Virus record (IMG/VR): IMGVR_UViG_3300036857_000619
Coordinates: 1 to 64,000 of that record
From: a virus
Strand: one strand, 5' to 3'
Length of the DNA stretch: 64,000 nt
The position numbers and the translations under genes are program-made. The notes below the pieces were generated by a model. That model was not told where the DNA came from. It saw only the letters and a list, made by a program, of their open reading frames with translations, and did no database searches. Shown one piece after another: positions 1,667 through 35,102 of this stretch (position 1 is the stretch's first letter; the number at the start of each line of letters is the position of its first letter).

Positions 1667-1746
1667 GCCCAGGAGGAATGCTCCGCAGGCAGGTCGCTCC
1701 TGCCCCTGGGCTCCAGCGCTTCGGCGCTGATATCCCACTCCGGAGG
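1667..1746 (+). promoter_or_regulatory. Structured leader A (three helices, copy 1)
   Basis: Outer helix GCCCAGG (1667-1673)/CCTGGGC (1705-1711). Inner helix GCAGG (1685-1689)/CCTGC (1699-1703). Third hairpin CAGCGC-TTCG-GCGCTG (1714-1729) with a UUCG tetraloop. Then ATCCCAC and SD GGAGGT. Copy 2 at 2277 keeps the same fold with different inner-helix sequence. Confidence 0.65.
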
Positions 1747-1756
1747 TGAGGCTGTT

Positions 1757-2266
1757 ATGCCCACACCCCGCATTCACGCTGCGCCGTTCATCTGGACGGA
1801 AGGCAGCTACTCCGTCGGTACGGACGTTGACGTCCTGACCGGCATCGTCTTCCGCGCGGTCAAGGCTCCGTCCCGGCGCCGCGCGAAGACGCAAGCCTGG
1901 CGTAAGACCCAGGCCGCACGGTTCGAGCGCCGCCAGGAGCGGGCGCTCATCGCGGAGCACATCGAGGCTGAGGCCCCGGTGTACGACCGCCAGTTCGCGC
2001 GCTACGCCCGCGAGTATCGCCTGGCGCGTGCCGAGGAGGAGGAGCTCGACCTCCTCTACGGCAGCGAGGCCGAGCGGCGGCTCGAGGACCTGCGCTACGA
2101 GGCGCAGCTCGCGGCCTGGCGAGCCGGTGTCGCCGACAAGCGGGAGCGACTCGGCGCGCTCCGCCAGCAGATTGCCCAGCTCGTCGAGGAGGCCGATGAG
2201 CTGGAGGCGTCCATCGACTACCAGGTCGGTGGCGTCTGCGCCATCTGTGGCGACCCGCGCTGCTAG
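1757..2266 (+). CDS. Coiled-coil protein with C-terminal Cys cluster
   Basis: 169 aa; ATG 8 nt after CGGAGGTG. Residues about 35-150 are strongly charged and helical (repeated Arg/Glu/Ala, RQERALIAEHIEAEAP, LRQQIAQLVEEADELEASI), consistent with a long coiled coil. The end CAICGDPRC is a possible metal-binding knuckle. It sits between two four-Cys paralogs and behind structured leader A. No known family recognised; possibly a scaffold or adaptor (inference). Confidence 0.7.
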   Translation: MPTPRIHAAPFIWTEGSYSVGTDVDVLTGIVFRAVKAPSRRRAKTQAWRKTQAARFERRQERALIAEHIEAEAPVYDRQFARYAREYRLARAEEEELDLLYGSEAERRLEDLRYEAQLAAWRAGVADKRERLGALRQQIAQLVEEADELEASIDYQVGGVCAICGDPRC

Positions 2267-2276
2267 CCACAGCGCA

Positions 2277-2358
2277 GCCCAGGAGGTTGACCGAAGGCGG
2301 GTCATTCCCGCCCCTGGGCACCAGCGCTTGTCAGAGCGCTGACATCCCACCCAGGAGG
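2277..2358 (+). promoter_or_regulatory. Structured leader B (three helices, copy 2)
   Basis: GCCCAGG (2277-2283)/CCTGGGC (2313-2319) encloses GGCGGG (2296-2301)/CCCGCC (2307-2312). Then CAGCGCT (2322-2328)/AGCGCTG (2335-2341), ATCCCAC and CAGGAGGTG. The inner helix differs from leader A but still pairs, which is covariation. Confidence 0.65.
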
Positions 2359-2609: not shown

Positions 2610-3203
2610 ATGGTCATGCCTACCCTTTCCTCCCTTACTCCCGCCCAGCGCGCGGCTGCCGCGCAGCTGCTCGCCGCCCTGCTCGAGGATGTCGCTCCGG
2701 CGGCGCCCGAGCCTGCGGCGGCGTCCATCTGGACCGCTGACAAGGTGGTCCGCTGGGTGGACCGCGGAGGCCGCCCGCGCAACGACATGGCGGCCACGAT
2801 CACCGACGGCGCCAGCGATCCGCTGGGCCTGCTGCCGGTGGCCGCGCGCTACCCCGGCCGGCCGATCTTCCCGGAAGGCTTCCGCTTCAAGACGAAGCGG
2901 GACCTGCCGATGGACGCGGTGATCGTCCGCAAGGCGGGCACCGTGCGCAGCCCGCAGCCGGCCGACCTGCGGACCACCGCCCCTGCGTCGCAGCGCAGCG
3001 GCGGTTCGCAGGCCGCGTTCAAGGCGGGCCACGACCTGGGCTCGAACGCGCCCACGCGCACGGTCGTGGTGCGCGACCTGCTGCGCGCGGACGGGCCCTG
3101 GCTGCGCTGCCCGGAGTGCAGCGAGGCGTACTGGAGCGCGACGCGCGACGACGCCTGGCTCGAGACGAAGGTGCGCAAGCACATCGCCTCGAAGCACGCC
3201 TGA
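2610..3203 (+). CDS. 'WTADK-VRWVDRGG' family protein with C-terminal C2H2-type finger
   Basis: 197 aa. The ATG at 2610 is chosen because GTG 2601 overlaps the SD itself. Order: helix (TPAQRAAAAQLLAALLED), IWTADKVVRWVDRGG, ATITDGASDPLGLLPVAARYPGRP, a basic linker, then WLRCPECSEAYW...KHIASKH, a CxxC...HxxxxH zinc finger. The N-terminal half is paralogous to 219 and the finger to the C-terminus of 4385, so the family looks modular. Probably nucleic-acid or protein binding (inference). Confidence 0.8.
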   Translation: MVMPTLSSLTPAQRAAAAQLLAALLEDVAPAAPEPAAASIWTADKVVRWVDRGGRPRNDMAATITDGASDPLGLLPVAARYPGRPIFPEGFRFKTKRDLPMDAVIVRKAGTVRSPQPADLRTTAPASQRSGGSQAAFKAGHDLGSNAPTRTVVVRDLLRADGPWLRCPECSEAYWSATRDDAWLETKVRKHIASKHA

Positions 3204-3209
3204 GGCGCT

Positions 3210-3252
3210 GACCCCGATGGTCGTAAGGCGAGTTCGACTCTCGCCTGGGGTC
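3210..3252 (+). ncRNA. tRNA-like minihelix (acceptor stem plus T-arm)
   Basis: GACCCCG (3210-3216) pairs with TGGGGTC (3246-3252; one G-U), a 7-bp acceptor-like stem. Inside is GGCGAG-TTCGACT-CTCGCC (3227-3245), a T-arm with the TTCRANY consensus loop. D-arm and anticodon arm are absent and no CCA follows. It could be a tRNA remnant, a tRNA mimic, or the tRNA 3'-end match of an attachment site. Transcription is likely as part of the operon. Confidence 0.45.
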
Positions 3253-3290
3253 CCGGTGCGACATGCACCTGGAAGGAGGTCATGACAGTC

Positions 3291-3473
3291 ATGGCCAGGA
3301 AGAACGATCGGGTAGGCGGCAAGATCAGCCGCGGCACGTGTGAGGGCTGCGGCCTGGACCTGGGCAACCGCCTGGACCCGTACTGCTGGGCCTGCGCCAA
3401 GCAGCTCGAGCGCGTGATCGAGCAGCGCATGCGCGAACGGCGCCGCGAGCTGGCCGAGCAGGCCGCCTCGTGA
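3291..3473 (+). CDS. Small four-Cys protein with basic helix
   Basis: 60 aa: CEGCGLDLG and CWACAKQLE knuckles followed by a charged helix (RMRERRRELAEQA). AAGGAGGT ends 2 nt before ATG 3282 and about 10 nt before ATG 3291, so the later start is preferred; starting at 3282 would add MTV. Probably zinc-binding. Confidence 0.65.
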   Translation: MARKNDRVGGKISRGTCEGCGLDLGNRLDPYCWACAKQLERVIEQRMRERRRELAEQAAS

Positions 3474-3712: not shown

Positions 3713-4042
3713 CGGCGCCTGAGGGCGCCACACGCCAACCCTGACGATAGGGAGGGAGGTCTGAAAATTAGGCCTGCCTGCCTGCCAGGCAGGGTGACGA
3801 GCCTCCCTGCCGGCCTATCGGCCTGCCTGCCACGCAGGGGGTTCAGGCCCCCGGAGCCTGCCCCAATCGCTGGGCCTGCGCATGGCCCTGCGCGCCTGCC
3901 CATGCGCGCCCCTGATGCGGGCGCTGGCGTCCGATAACGGACGCTTAGCGGACCCCTCCCTGCAGGCCCATCCCGCGCGCCCGCATGCGCCCACACACGA
4001 GCGCACGGGCCACGCATGGCGAAGCCCCCATTCGAGTTCAGT
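3713..4042. other. Non-coding island before P3
   Basis: No gene seen. 3766-3870 is dense in CCTGCC/GGCAGG (GCCTGCCTGCCTGCCAGGCAGG near 3772-3793 folds on itself). 3871-4020 is rich in GCGC and CATGCGCCC motifs. Composition resembles 1119-1364. Confidence 0.55.
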
Positions 4043-4071
4043 TTGCTCGTTTGGGTTCCGACATGCTATCG
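4043..4071 (+). promoter_or_regulatory. Promoter P3
   Basis: TTGCTC (4043-4048), 17-nt spacer containing GGGTTCCGACATGC, and -10 TATCGT (4066-4071) followed by TTTTGTCC. Family match to P1 and P2. Confidence 0.7.
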
Positions 4072-4148
4072 TTTTTGTCCCGTTCGGTCGCTGGTCGCCA
4101 CGATCACGATCGGACGGCCCCGCCCCCGCGAGCGTGCACACACGTCGT

Positions 4149-4186
4149 GCGCATCGCGCATCCCACCTGAGGAGGTCTCGAGACCT
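4149..4186 (+). promoter_or_regulatory. Leader hairpin and SD-overlapping palindrome
   Basis: TGCGC-ATC-GCGCA (4149-4161), then TCCCACCTGAGGAGG. The perfect 14-bp palindrome AGGTCTCGAGACCT (4173-4186) includes the 3' half of the SD and ends directly at the ATG. AGGTC/GACCT can pair around a TCGA loop and hide the SD. Confidence 0.55.
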
Positions 4187-5122: not shown

Positions 5123-5156
5123 GCCTGCACCCCACCGCGCTCCTGACCCTGGCCAT

Positions 5157-5183
5157 GACCCCCGCTCACAGCGAGCGGGGGTC
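5157..5183 (+). terminator. Strong intercistronic hairpin
   Basis: GACCCCCGCTC (5157-5167) pairs perfectly with GAGCGGGGGTC (5173-5183), 11 bp with an ACAGC loop, followed by GTTCTGTCCC and SD GGGAGG. It could be a partial terminator between operon segments. Confidence 0.65.
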
Positions 5184-5204
5184 GTTCTGTCCCTGGGAGG
5201 ACCT

Positions 5205-18175: not shown

Positions 18176-18519
18176 GCGACTACGACTACGGCCCGCTGGC
18201 CGAACAACGATTGCAACAGGGCTACTCCACCACGTGCGCGAACGGAGGACACCCACGCTGCAAGGGCAGTCGTCTCCAGAACCGCGGCACCGGCCCACGC
18301 GTGCGGTGCACGTGTCAGTGCCACACGCCGCAGGCTGTCGCAGCTGATGAGCGCGAGGAGCTCGAGCGCTCGATTGACGAGACGATCAGCGAGGTCGCGC
18401 AGCACATCGAACGGCTGGAGTACCTCCAGCGAAAACTCGTGGCCTTACGAGCCCTCGTCAGGCGGAGGAGCTTGAGCTTGACCCCTTCCTGTGAGCCTAT
18501 CTACAAGGAGGGCCGCTGA
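18172..18519 (+). CDS. Cys/His motif protein with coiled coil
   Basis: 115 aa. TTCANGGHPRCKGSRLQNRG and VRCTCQCHTP form a C..GH..C.G...C.C.CH module, also present at 29840 and in part at 26946. Residues 60-100 are a coiled coil (REELERSIDETISEVAQHIE). Confidence 0.65.
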   Translation: MSDYDYGPLAEQRLQQGYSTTCANGGHPRCKGSRLQNRGTGPRVRCTCQCHTPQAVAADEREELERSIDETISEVAQHIERLEYLQRKLVALRALVRRRSLSLTPSCEPIYKEGR

Positions 18520-18520
18520 G

Positions 18521-18754
18521 GTGGCTACCTTCATCACCGTCCTGGCGCAGGGCTACGGCAGCATCGAGCTGAACCTGGATCAGGTGCGCTGGATGCACGC
18601 GCTCGACAAGGCGACGACAGTCGTCCATTTCGGGCCTGAGACGGACGATCTGCGCGTGGCCGAAAGCCTGGCAAGCCTGAGCGATCGCCTGCCTGGGCCT
18701 GAGGACCGCCTGATCGCCGCCCACGAGCGCTCGGCCGCGCCCGCGCAGCCCTAA
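18521..18754 (+). CDS. Small hypothetical protein
   Basis: 77 aa from GTG 18521 with AAGGAG 10 nt upstream. IELNLDQVRWMHALDKATTV and RVAESLASLSDRLPGPEDRL. Last gene before P6. No family recognised. Confidence 0.6.
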   Translation: MATFITVLAQGYGSIELNLDQVRWMHALDKATTVVHFGPETDDLRVAESLASLSDRLPGPEDRLIAAHERSAAPAQP

Positions 18755-18868: not shown

Positions 18869-18982
18869 CAACGTGTTCCAACTTCAGTTCGTGTTCGACA
18901 CCCCATCACCCCACTCACACTCGTGACGCGCCGCACCCGTGCTCGTAAGAGCGCCGTTCCCACCCAGGAGGTCGATGCCACT

Positions 18983-20074
18983 GTGGCCGTAGATCCCGCA
19001 CCCGGTCCCGCTCCCGATACCGCGCCGGTCGAGTTGAGCTCGCGGCGCGCCTCGCGCAAGATCGCCAGGCCCGCGCCAGCCACGGACGACGCCGACGCGG
19101 CCCTCGCCGCGGCCGCCCGCGTCGCCGCCAGCACGCCCGACGAGCCCGCCGCCCCGAGCGAGCGCTGGCTCGCGCCCATCGACAAGCTGCGCGTCGCTGC
19201 CGAGCCGCTCAGCCTGGTCCGCCACCGCGTCAGCAAGGCGCTGGTCGGCAGCTTCGCCAACGCCGACTGCGGCTACACGCTGATGGTCGACCCCAAGGCC
19301 CCGCTGTCGGCCGCCGAGGTCGATCTCGAGCGCTGCGGCTGGTGCGTCAAGCTCGCCGCGGGCGAGCAGATCCCGCCCTACAACAAGGGCCAGCGCCGCC
19401 CGGTGCTGCCCGACGACAATCTCGTCCGCGTTCGCCAGCGCACGCCCGAGCCGCGCAAGGTCGAGGTCGCGCCCGAGATCGCCGCGCTGCTCGACGAGAG
19501 CGCGTTCAACGCCGCCCTGGGCGAGGTCCAGACCGCCATGCAGCGGATCCTGGGCGGCGAGTGGGCGCCGAACGCCGAGGAGATGGCGCGCCTGAACACG
19601 CTCAGCGCCAACCTGAAGCTGGCCGCCGAGACGCGCGGCAAGGCGACCGTCACGAAGGAGCCCGACGGCACGCTGACGCTCACCTCGACGGCGGTTGCGC
19701 CCACCCGCACGCGCTCCGAAGCGGCCGCTCAGGTGCGTGGTCCGCGCGGCCCGCTGGTGCGCGTGGCCAAGCAGACAGTGGACGGCGAGGCCGCCACGCT
19801 GCCGGACGTGCGCAAGGACGGCAAGCTGCTCGGCGTGCTGTTCCGCACCTTCGACCCGCAGGGCCCGTTCCTGCTCGGCGACGGCAACAAGCGCTGGACC
19901 GTGCGCGACATCCGCACCAACGAGGATCGCTACTTCGGCAAGGACAAGAAGGGCGCTATCGACTACCTGAACGAGCGTCTGGCCGAGCTCAGCATGGAAG
20001 AGCGCGCGTCTGGCGCGGCCCTGGCCCGCGCGCGCATGCAAGCCAGTGACCCGACCCACCGCCGCTCGCGCTGA
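18983..20074 (+). CDS. Hypothetical protein, 363 aa
   Basis: GTG 18983 is preferred (CAGGAGGT 11 nt upstream); an in-frame GTG at 18923 would add 20 residues that encode the SD region. Low-complexity Pro/Ala N-terminus, then a folded block with CGYTLMVDPKAPLSAAEVDL and CGWCVKLAAGEQ (three Cys), a helical middle (AAETRGKATVTKEP), and a C-terminal GVLFRTFDPQGPFLLGDGNK with RWTVRDIRTNEDRYFG. No family recognised. First gene of the P6 operon with the AAA ATPase. Confidence 0.75.
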   Translation: MAVDPAPGPAPDTAPVELSSRRASRKIARPAPATDDADAALAAAARVAASTPDEPAAPSERWLAPIDKLRVAAEPLSLVRHRVSKALVGSFANADCGYTLMVDPKAPLSAAEVDLERCGWCVKLAAGEQIPPYNKGQRRPVLPDDNLVRVRQRTPEPRKVEVAPEIAALLDESAFNAALGEVQTAMQRILGGEWAPNAEEMARLNTLSANLKLAAETRGKATVTKEPDGTLTLTSTAVAPTRTRSEAAAQVRGPRGPLVRVAKQTVDGEAATLPDVRKDGKLLGVLFRTFDPQGPFLLGDGNKRWTVRDIRTNEDRYFGKDKKGAIDYLNERLAELSMEERASGAALARARMQASDPTHRRSR

Positions 20075-34745: not shown

Positions 34746-35102
34746 ATGACCAACGTCGTCGCCTTTCCTGGCGCCGAATCCCCCGTCCAGTTTCCGAGCC
34801 GCTCGCCGACGGCGGGCTGCCAGTGGCTGAGCGCCACCGATCCGCCGCGGCGCTGTCCGCGGCGGGCGTTCTACGCGCTCGAGGTGCGCGAGCTGCCGAA
34901 TCAGCCCGAGGTGCTGTGCGCGCTGCACCTGGACCTGGCGCTGCAGCAGGCGGTCGTCGCGCCGGGCGAGATGCAGATCAGCCCGCTGGTGATCGACCGC
35001 TCGAGCTGGCTGGTCGGCCGCTGGGCCTGGCGGCTGAAAGAGAAACGGCGGCTGCTGGAGATGCTCGCGGCCGTCGGCATTGAGGAGCAAAGGAGTGCCT
35101 GA
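34746..35102 (+). CDS. Hypothetical protein
   Basis: 118 aa. CQWLSATDPPRRCPRRAFYA, VLCALHLDLALQQAVVAPGE (Cys/His set), then a basic helix (WRLKEKRRLLEMLAA). Immediately upstream of the Tat-signal gene. Confidence 0.6.
   Translation: MTNVVAFPGAESPVQFPSRSPTAGCQWLSATDPPRRCPRRAFYALEVRELPNQPEVLCALHLDLALQQAVVAPGEMQISPLVIDRSSWLVGRWAWRLKEKRRLLEMLAAVGIEEQRSA

Follow-up and report, generated by a model that had tools for sequence, protein, structure and literature searches.

Minimal tRNA-like elements between phage genes and their probable divergent members in the leaders of a 124.8-kb phage

In mitochondria, whole functional tRNAs lying between protein genes serve as processing signals, an arrangement called tRNA punctuation, and the bacterial Y RNA YrlA contains a tRNA-like module. 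The phage elements described here resemble mitochondrial punctuation in placing tRNA shapes between protein genes but have no anticodon arm, and they are far shorter than YrlA (RF02553), the RNA linked with Ro/Rsr. Compared with tRNA itself (RF00005), they keep the 12-bp stack of acceptor on T-arm, the UUCRANY T-loop, the G53-C61 pair, a D-loop-like GG, a purine at position 73 and C74, whereas at about 41 nt they have neither an anticodon arm nor a D-stem, usually carry no CCA, and lie between protein genes.

Non-tRNA substrates of RNase P also bear comparison. PMC11143913 describes the 12-bp measuring device of this enzyme, a model substrate (AT1) made of acceptor, T-stem and T-loop, and substrates among phage RNAs and mRNAs; the minihelix AT1, phage M3 RNA, C4 RNA, T4 gene 32 mRNA and polycistronic mRNAs presented there share with the present elements a structure that resembles tRNA or its acceptor/T-arm part, within phage or operon RNA. 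Those substrates are presented as single cases, whereas the present elements, known from sequence, are repeated and covarying and occur in one gap after another within a phage block.

Repeats in phage gaps have been described as well. In cluster K mycobacteriophages, the ESAS/SAS repeats occupy large gaps upstream of the ribosome-binding sites of non-structural genes, the ESAS being 17-bp imperfect inverted repeats of conserved sequence with a spacer of mostly 4–13 bp, accompanied by the 13-bp SAS GGGATAGGAGCCC, and in that account the authors report little support for mRNA hairpins (PMC3203893). Compared by description, the ESAS and the present elements are both repeated, gap-located and built on inverted repeats, whereas the ESAS has a conserved sequence and, in the description in PMC3203893, no T-arm. 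Phages Vardy and CaiB are described as carrying unexplained intergenic repeats, and the genome announcement of Gordonia phage VanLee, which figures largely below, reports one tRNA and mentions no elements of the present kind. Among the matches listed for the open-licence literature, no description of tRNA-like elements between phage genes was found. At the gathering score, Rfam 15 gave no match in the DNA analysed here, and 11 family loci gave one tRNA and one hammerhead and no element. The family of tRNA-shaped intergenic elements is apparently undescribed, and its recognition turns unannotated phage gaps into a defined RNA family.

Intergenic leaders of the window phage

The DNA analysed here, hereafter the window, is a 64-kb stretch forming the first part of a 124,823-base virus record (IMGVR_UViG_3300036857_000619). 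Bases 1–127 of the window recur at the end of the record and two other contigs span the joint, so that the 124.8-kb map is circular and probably complete. The phage is tailed, with terminase, portal, major head, tail fibre and Ku-like genes, and also has an integrase. Within the window, ARAGORN found only a tRNA-Leu, at 34796. A 103-bp inverted repeat with 90% identity lies elsewhere in the record (L005:4018–4120 and 18480–18582). Searches with the window's own genes returned no relatives beyond two contigs that belong to the same phage and show 100% identity where they overlap; searches with the gene at 18983 and three small genes gave none, the terminase search gave a contig of the same phage and otherwise distant relatives, and scans for the literal leader sequences gave chance coding matches besides the same phage, or nothing.

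A block of small genes lies at the start of the window, where copies 1 and 2 of the leader separate genes 1477–1659, 1757–2266 and 2366–2530, all on the + strand. The gene upstream of copy 1 (1477–1659) encodes a small Cys4 protein with a SprT-like zinc ribbon match under the cut-off, and the gene downstream of copy 2 (2366–2530) encodes its paralogue, a small zinc-ribbon-like protein below Pfam's cut-off. The 169-aa protein encoded between the two copies (1757–2266) matched nothing in Pfam or PHROG at E 0.1.

A preliminary description had reported two similar leaders before the starts at 1757 and 2366, and every part that it named is present. Both spacers have the same layout, in which a 7-bp stem encloses a small hairpin and a 6-bp arm and is followed by a hairpin, ATCCCAC, a Shine-Dalgarno (SD) sequence and ATG. 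The tRNA-like element of copy 1 (1667–1711, +) has an acceptor-like stem, GCCCAGG (1667–1673) paired with CCTGGGC (1705–1711), a linker GG at 1675–1676, and a T-arm-like stem at 1688–1693/1699–1704, which can alternatively be drawn as 5 bp with the 7-nt loop GTCGCTC (1693–1699). A discriminator-like T and CCA follow (1712–1715), the CA being also in the base of the next hairpin, CAGCGC-TTCG-GCGCTG (1714–1729), and then ATCCCAC (1732–1738) and the SD GGAGG (1742–1746) precede ATG 1757. The element of copy 2 (2277–2319, +) has the stem GCCCAGG (2277–2283)/CCTGGGC (2313–2319), the linker AGGTTGACCGAA and a T-arm-like stem at 2296–2301/2307–2312, followed by an A73-like base and CCA (2320–2323), the hairpin CAGCGCTTGTCAGAGCGCTG (2322–2341), ATCCCAC (2344–2350) and the SD AGGAGG (2353–2358) before ATG 2366. 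RNAfold predicted an identical arrangement of junction and hairpin for the two copies, with z values of -1.46 for the whole leader of copy 1 (19 of 200 shuffles were as stable) and -4.73 for that of copy 2, and of -2.33 and -3.69, respectively, for the cores.

The copies are identical in 79 of 101 ungapped columns (78%), and their inner stems read GGCAGG/CCTGCC in copy 1 and GGCGGG/CCCGCC in copy 2. From this covarying inner helix, selection on RNA structure had been concluded. The change is indeed compensated, but it concerns a single pair (A-U to G-C), the other pairs being invariant (20/21), and covariation between two copies does not exceed chance, 257 of 500 shuffles being as good. A stronger argument is that the differences between the copies avoid the stems: two of 20 fall in paired columns, with 42 of 93 columns paired (hypergeometric p 2.5e-4), and random placement of the differences preserved all pairs in 1 of 20,000 trials. 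Selection on RNA structure was thus the right conclusion, for which one covarying pair could not suffice and for which the family supplies the evidence.

When the copies are re-read as parts of a tRNA, each consists of a 7-bp acceptor and a 5-bp T-stem with a 7-nt loop, followed by a discriminator and CCA, whose CA is paired within the base of the following hairpin. This NCCA is unique to copies 1 and 2 among the 42 matches of a plain geometric descriptor in the pieces of the record. A 5+7 descriptor without loop constraint was unspecific, with 14 matches on the + strand of the window and 3–9 in ten shuffles. Other roles were considered for the leaders and rejected: for a leader peptide, the spacing would be too short, and the frame after the inner AGGAGG stops at the SD in copy 1 and continues in copy 2; sequestration of the SD by CCTGGG is feasible in copy 2 only; and an intrinsic terminator would call for a U-tract, which is missing 3' of the hairpin.

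A third copy, likewise between a stop codon and an SD, lies at 3210–3252 (+) and, like a TCCCAC leader before GTG 18983, had been missed by the preliminary description. It is composed of the acceptor GACCCC(G)/(T)GGGGTC, the linker GATGGTCGTA and the T-arm GGCGAG-TTCGACT-CTCGCC, which is a standard tRNA T-arm (T-loop TTCGACT) stacked directly on the GACCCC/GGGGTC stem. The short hairpin GGTGC-GACAT-GCACC (3255–3269) and the SD AAGGAGG (3273–3279) follow before ATG 3282 or 3291, and RNAfold of 3201–3293 favours a different pairing over the 3255–3279 stretch. A covariance model of copies 1 and 2 matched the region weakly (3198–3285, 14.6 bits, E 0.056) and reached 14.2 bits within a gene elsewhere, and a strict tRNA-loop descriptor had one match on both strands of the record pieces, at 3210. 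BLAST with copy 3 found weak matches (E 0.03 and 5) in unannotated stretches of VanLee and Mycobacterium phage Journey13; the remaining matches shown were mostly tRNA T-arms, including those of actinophage tRNA genes. A Y-RNA identity was rejected, as copy 3 scored 13 bits (E 2.4) against RF02553, whose gathering score is 69, and no TROVE protein was found in the record. VanLee, by comparison, has a gene for a Ro-like RNA-binding protein (65454–67367), 3' of a tRNA-Arg gene.

Fold and spread of the tRNA-like elements

Copy 3 resembles intergenic elements of VanLee and Journey13, and in VanLee the same object recurs through gap after gap between small genes. It is defined by a 6–7 bp acceptor stacked on a 5–6 bp T-arm (12 bp in all), a GG-bearing linker and no anticodon arm, so the earlier term "three-helix mRNA leader" misses an acceptor/T-arm mimic between genes, which in the window phage is joined to a separate module of hairpin, C-rich motif and SD. 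A pattern scan of IMG/VR yielded 38 stretches with a 6–7 bp acceptor, a linker of mostly about 10 nt, a 5–6 bp T-stem and a TTCRAYT loop. The linker GG, equivalent to G18-G19 of the D-loop, was present in 26 of 26 elements whose search had left it free, and together with the T-loop it makes up the elbow, the most conserved part of the element.

The fold was assessed with a second pattern, which constrained the T-loop, the two pairs that close it and a portion of the linker and left the stems otherwise free; 80 of the 88 stretches reported were used and, after removal of duplicates and contig-end elements, gave 73 distinct elements. The full 6-bp T-stem is formed in 68 of 73, and shuffled partners reached at most 11 in 200 shuffles; the full 6-bp acceptor is formed in 55 of 73 and five or more of its pairs in 69, with at most 10 full acceptors among shuffled partners (200 shuffles). 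Both helices are thus kept across 39 different acceptor 5' strands, and the further copies and compensated changes in relatives that the preliminary description had looked for were found once the tRNA-likeness was recognised. At the four free pairs of the T-stem, the non-Watson-Crick cells comprise 24 G-U, 2 A-C and 5 others, and this preference for G-U over A-C indicates selection on RNA rather than DNA. The acceptor cells comprise 397 Watson-Crick, 13 G-U, 1 A-C and 27 others, and the innermost pair accounts for many of these others (10 G-G, 3 G-A). In most elements the stack does not extend beyond 12 pairs: a 13th is possible in 19 of 69 elements (a slight excess over the 11.9 expected by shuffling) and a 14th in 6. 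Position 73 is A or G in 54 of 69 elements, position 74 is C in 64 and position 75 is C in 3, and the combination of a nearly fixed C74 with a rare C75 perhaps reflects avoidance of a CCA end.

A covariance model, R3, was trained on 41 phage elements, none of them from the window; its alignment retained 41 of 54 distinct elements, with 11 long-linker elements and two others left out. Paired cells make up 97.4% of this alignment, a value biased upward by a descriptor that required both stems, and 9 of 12 pairs show changes on both sides, with 0 of 500 shuffles as good. R3 matched 36 of 37 loci of the first scan (E up to 0.1) and 65 of 72 new loci (E up to 0.001), which corresponds to 99 contigs, a count that is partly by construction in that the scan patterns share the core of R3, and from which L065, a repeat of L053, was left out. 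Close elements (E 0.01 or less) occur in 13 annotated records of Gordonia, Mycobacterium and Streptomyces phages, and 17 matches fall in the searched part of VanLee and 10 in that of Cafasso. Streptomyces phage Dagobah has one element of 55.7 bits, in a gap, and the family is carried by phages of Mycobacterium smegmatis and Gordonia rubripertincta, both laboratory hosts. Some family contigs of IMG/VR have a GC content of 45–49%, and the locus L061, at 47%, means that the family is not restricted to high-GC phages. Taken together, there is little doubt that the family of tRNA-like elements is real.

Several loci show further particulars. In L061 (8367–9908), five elements occur within 1.5 kb, each 15 nt 5' of an ATG and with no clear SD, and in L068 (118–208) two elements stand in direct tandem. 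A Type II hammerhead ribozyme (37.6 bits) lies in L062 (6984–7047), about 430 nt 3' of a tRNA-like element. A member was also found on the Gordonia bronchialis plasmid pGBRO01 (L173:3001–3049; 50.6 bits, E 4e-10), typed as mobilizable, about 16 nt past a gene end.

Placement between genes and candidate processing

In the 71.5–82.7 kb block of VanLee, 17 gaps measure 60 nt or more, and 16 of them contain an element. The element-free gap is the largest (362 nt) and separates the block's first gene from its second; a promoter is suspected in it, and its final part has CCACCCAAC and an SD. Five annotated loci, comprising all of Rockstar and Appa and sections of VanLee, Journey13 and Cafasso, gave 31 matches, of which 29 were intergenic, counted against the annotated genes near the matches. 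Of 69 elements, 40 begin 5–13 nt past a stop codon, 18 have their nearest qualifying stop more than 13 nt away and 11 have none within 120 nt; in another set of 50 elements, the distance from stop to element was 1–15 nt in 39. The latter set was drawn from 56 of 82 R3 matches, 19 from VanLee and Journey13 having been treated separately and 7 weak or partial ones dropped. In this set, an SD-like stretch with a start within 150 nt was found for 46 of 50 (39.5% at random positions), a stop within 150 nt upstream for 46 of 50 (random 55.7%), and a location inside a long open frame for 23 of 50 (random 68.5%). By a simple rule, a start with an SD within 130 nt was found for 31 of the 69 elements and none for 38, and the distance from element to start was 22–89 nt in 30 of those 31. 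Copies 1, 2 and 3 of the window begin 7, 10 and 6 nt past the upstream stop codon, ahead of the SD of the next gene.

Three things are observed: the fold, with its covariation and its preference for G-U; the position that the elements usually take, behind a stop codon and ahead of the next gene; and how widely the family is spread. What the elements do is a matter of interpretation. The element would copy the top half of a tRNA, an acceptor on a T-arm (12 bp) with its T-loop, and the linker GG could dock with U55-C56. Host RNase P would then cut at the base of the acceptor stem, a few nucleotides past each stop codon, and the polycistronic message would be punctuated into single-gene mRNAs, each downstream mRNA beginning with a tRNA-like cap; in the window phage, the hairpin and C-rich/SD leader after the cap might set translation and stability. 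RNase P cutting between genes is favoured as the best mechanism, with a confidence no better than even. What is conserved, namely the 12-bp measure, the T-arm and the bases immediately 3' of the acceptor, coincides with what RNase P reads. Most elements have the 12-bp stack along with the purine 73 (54/69) and C74 (64/69). Against cutting by RNase P, the RCCA motif, which is stressed in PMC12710915 and with which the RNA of the enzyme pairs, is mostly incomplete here (C75 in 3/69), and its CCA is partly paired in the next hairpin in copies 1 and 2. The broader proposal is a tRNA-punctuation system in phages, which in the annotated cases infect Actinobacteria: reduced mimics would be placed after stop codons, and host RNase P would cut the operon mRNAs. 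It is judged to be just as evenly balanced. If it is true, the expression of neighbouring genes would be decoupled and the new mRNAs would have tRNA-like 5' ends, perhaps protected; phages would be using a mitochondria-like punctuation code made from the half of tRNA that RNase P reads. If RNase P does not cut the elements, another tRNA-reading factor would be recruited gene by gene.

Other functions are conceivable for a structure right behind a stop codon. The foremost alternative, held to be unlikely, is that the elements act uncut by binding a host factor that recognises the tRNA elbow, or the ribosome, and thereby control termination, re-initiation or translation of the next gene. It agrees with the position right after the stop and, in annotated phages, 5' of the SD and start, with the five elements of L061 that precede ATG at a constant 15 nt, and with the elbow being the most conserved part. 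However, the distance to the start (22–89 nt) is looser than that to the stop, and C74 and the 12-bp length would have no obvious role.

Substrates of RNase Z typically have no CCA after position 73, and a conserved C74 is not known to be needed by this enzyme. The reading in which RNase Z cuts the 3' side of the elements, or in which they cap 3' ends, so that the upstream mRNA would keep a tRNA-like stabiliser, draws on the scarcity of C75 and on the many elements close behind a stop codon, yet it is improbable in view of the strong conservation of C74 and the CCA of copies 1 and 2.

Membership of the window copies and neighbouring leader types

With full scoring over the 64-kb window, the best R3 match was copy 3 (42.1 bits, E 2e-7), followed by copy 2 (17.8 bits, E 0.07), the next match in the window reaching 14.1 bits and those in other pieces of the record at most 13.5. 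The E value of copy 2 is insignificant when taken alone, and this copy is missed by the default filters; copy 1 scored 7.2 bits, which is background (tenth of 49 in 6.6 kb), but its homology to copy 2 is clear. The 12-bp stack is found in all the copies, as 7+5 in copies 1 and 2 and as 6+6 or 6+7 in copy 3, and the linker GG is present in each (AGGA, AGGT and ATGGT). The T-loop TTCRANY is complete in copy 3, and the loops of copies 1 and 2, GTCGCTC and GTCATTC, keep U55, C56, R57 and Y60 and lose U54 and A58; the loci searched contain one further candidate whose loop is non-standard and whose geometry and placement are the same. A joint alignment sets copies 1 and 2 alongside phage elements (ACAGCCC..GG..GGCGGGT..TCCCGCCC..GGGCAC).

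Copy 3 is a family member with near certainty, and copies 1 and 2 are members with good, if lesser, confidence. It might instead be argued that copies 1 and 2 are a local duplicate of an ordinary intercistronic hairpin cluster for mRNA stability or weak termination, outside the family to which copy 3 alone belongs. Their 78% identity, their non-standard T-loops and their R3 scores of 7.2 and 17.8 bits would fit this, as would the many genes of the window phage with hairpins shortly 5' of the SD. We nevertheless regard it as improbable: R3, which never saw copy 2, placed it second on both strands of the record pieces, and the stop spacing and 12-bp geometry are shared; moreover, a loose NTCRNNY descriptor, written after the copies were known, gave 6 matches on both strands of these pieces, three of which are copies 1–3. 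Descent from decayed tRNA genes or attachment-site remnants, suggested by the likeness of the copy 3 T-arm to the T-arms of actinophage tRNA genes, can practically be dismissed, given the nearly all intergenic matches in the VanLee (17) and Cafasso (10) parts and the stems compensated across the family, since decay would not always keep both helices and yet lose the anticodon arm. The whole explanation, in which the divergent copies 1 and 2 and the canonical copy 3 belong to a widespread minimal tRNA-like family in phage operons and RNase P is included, is held with a confidence slightly above even.

A division like that in VanLee is seen in the window phage: three intergenic spacers have the tRNA-like part, and the leaders before 219, 4187 and 18983 consist of a hairpin, (A)TCCCAC and an SD. 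The simpler leaders that had been described before 219 and 4187 are both present, at 169–212 (hairpin 169–196, ATCCCAC 199–205, SD) and at 4133–4175 (a weaker hairpin, ATCCCAC 4160–4166, SD); the one before GTG 18983 lies at 18939–18971 (hairpin 18939–18954, TCCCAC 18958–18963, SD 18966–18971), all on the + strand. The CAYCCMAC motif of VanLee and the window is rare in the family (1/69), and that module is therefore outside the family.

A second leader type, at 864–914, 2531–2609 and 5123–5204 of the window, consists of a strong hairpin followed by TTCTCCCC or TTCTGTCC abutting the SD. A promoter-like repeat approximating TTCCGATGTGCTAGTA is located at 129–161, 1366–1398, 4041–4073, about 9590 and about 11870, where it precedes several early genes, and in our reading the repeats 5' of 219 and 4187 look like promoters.
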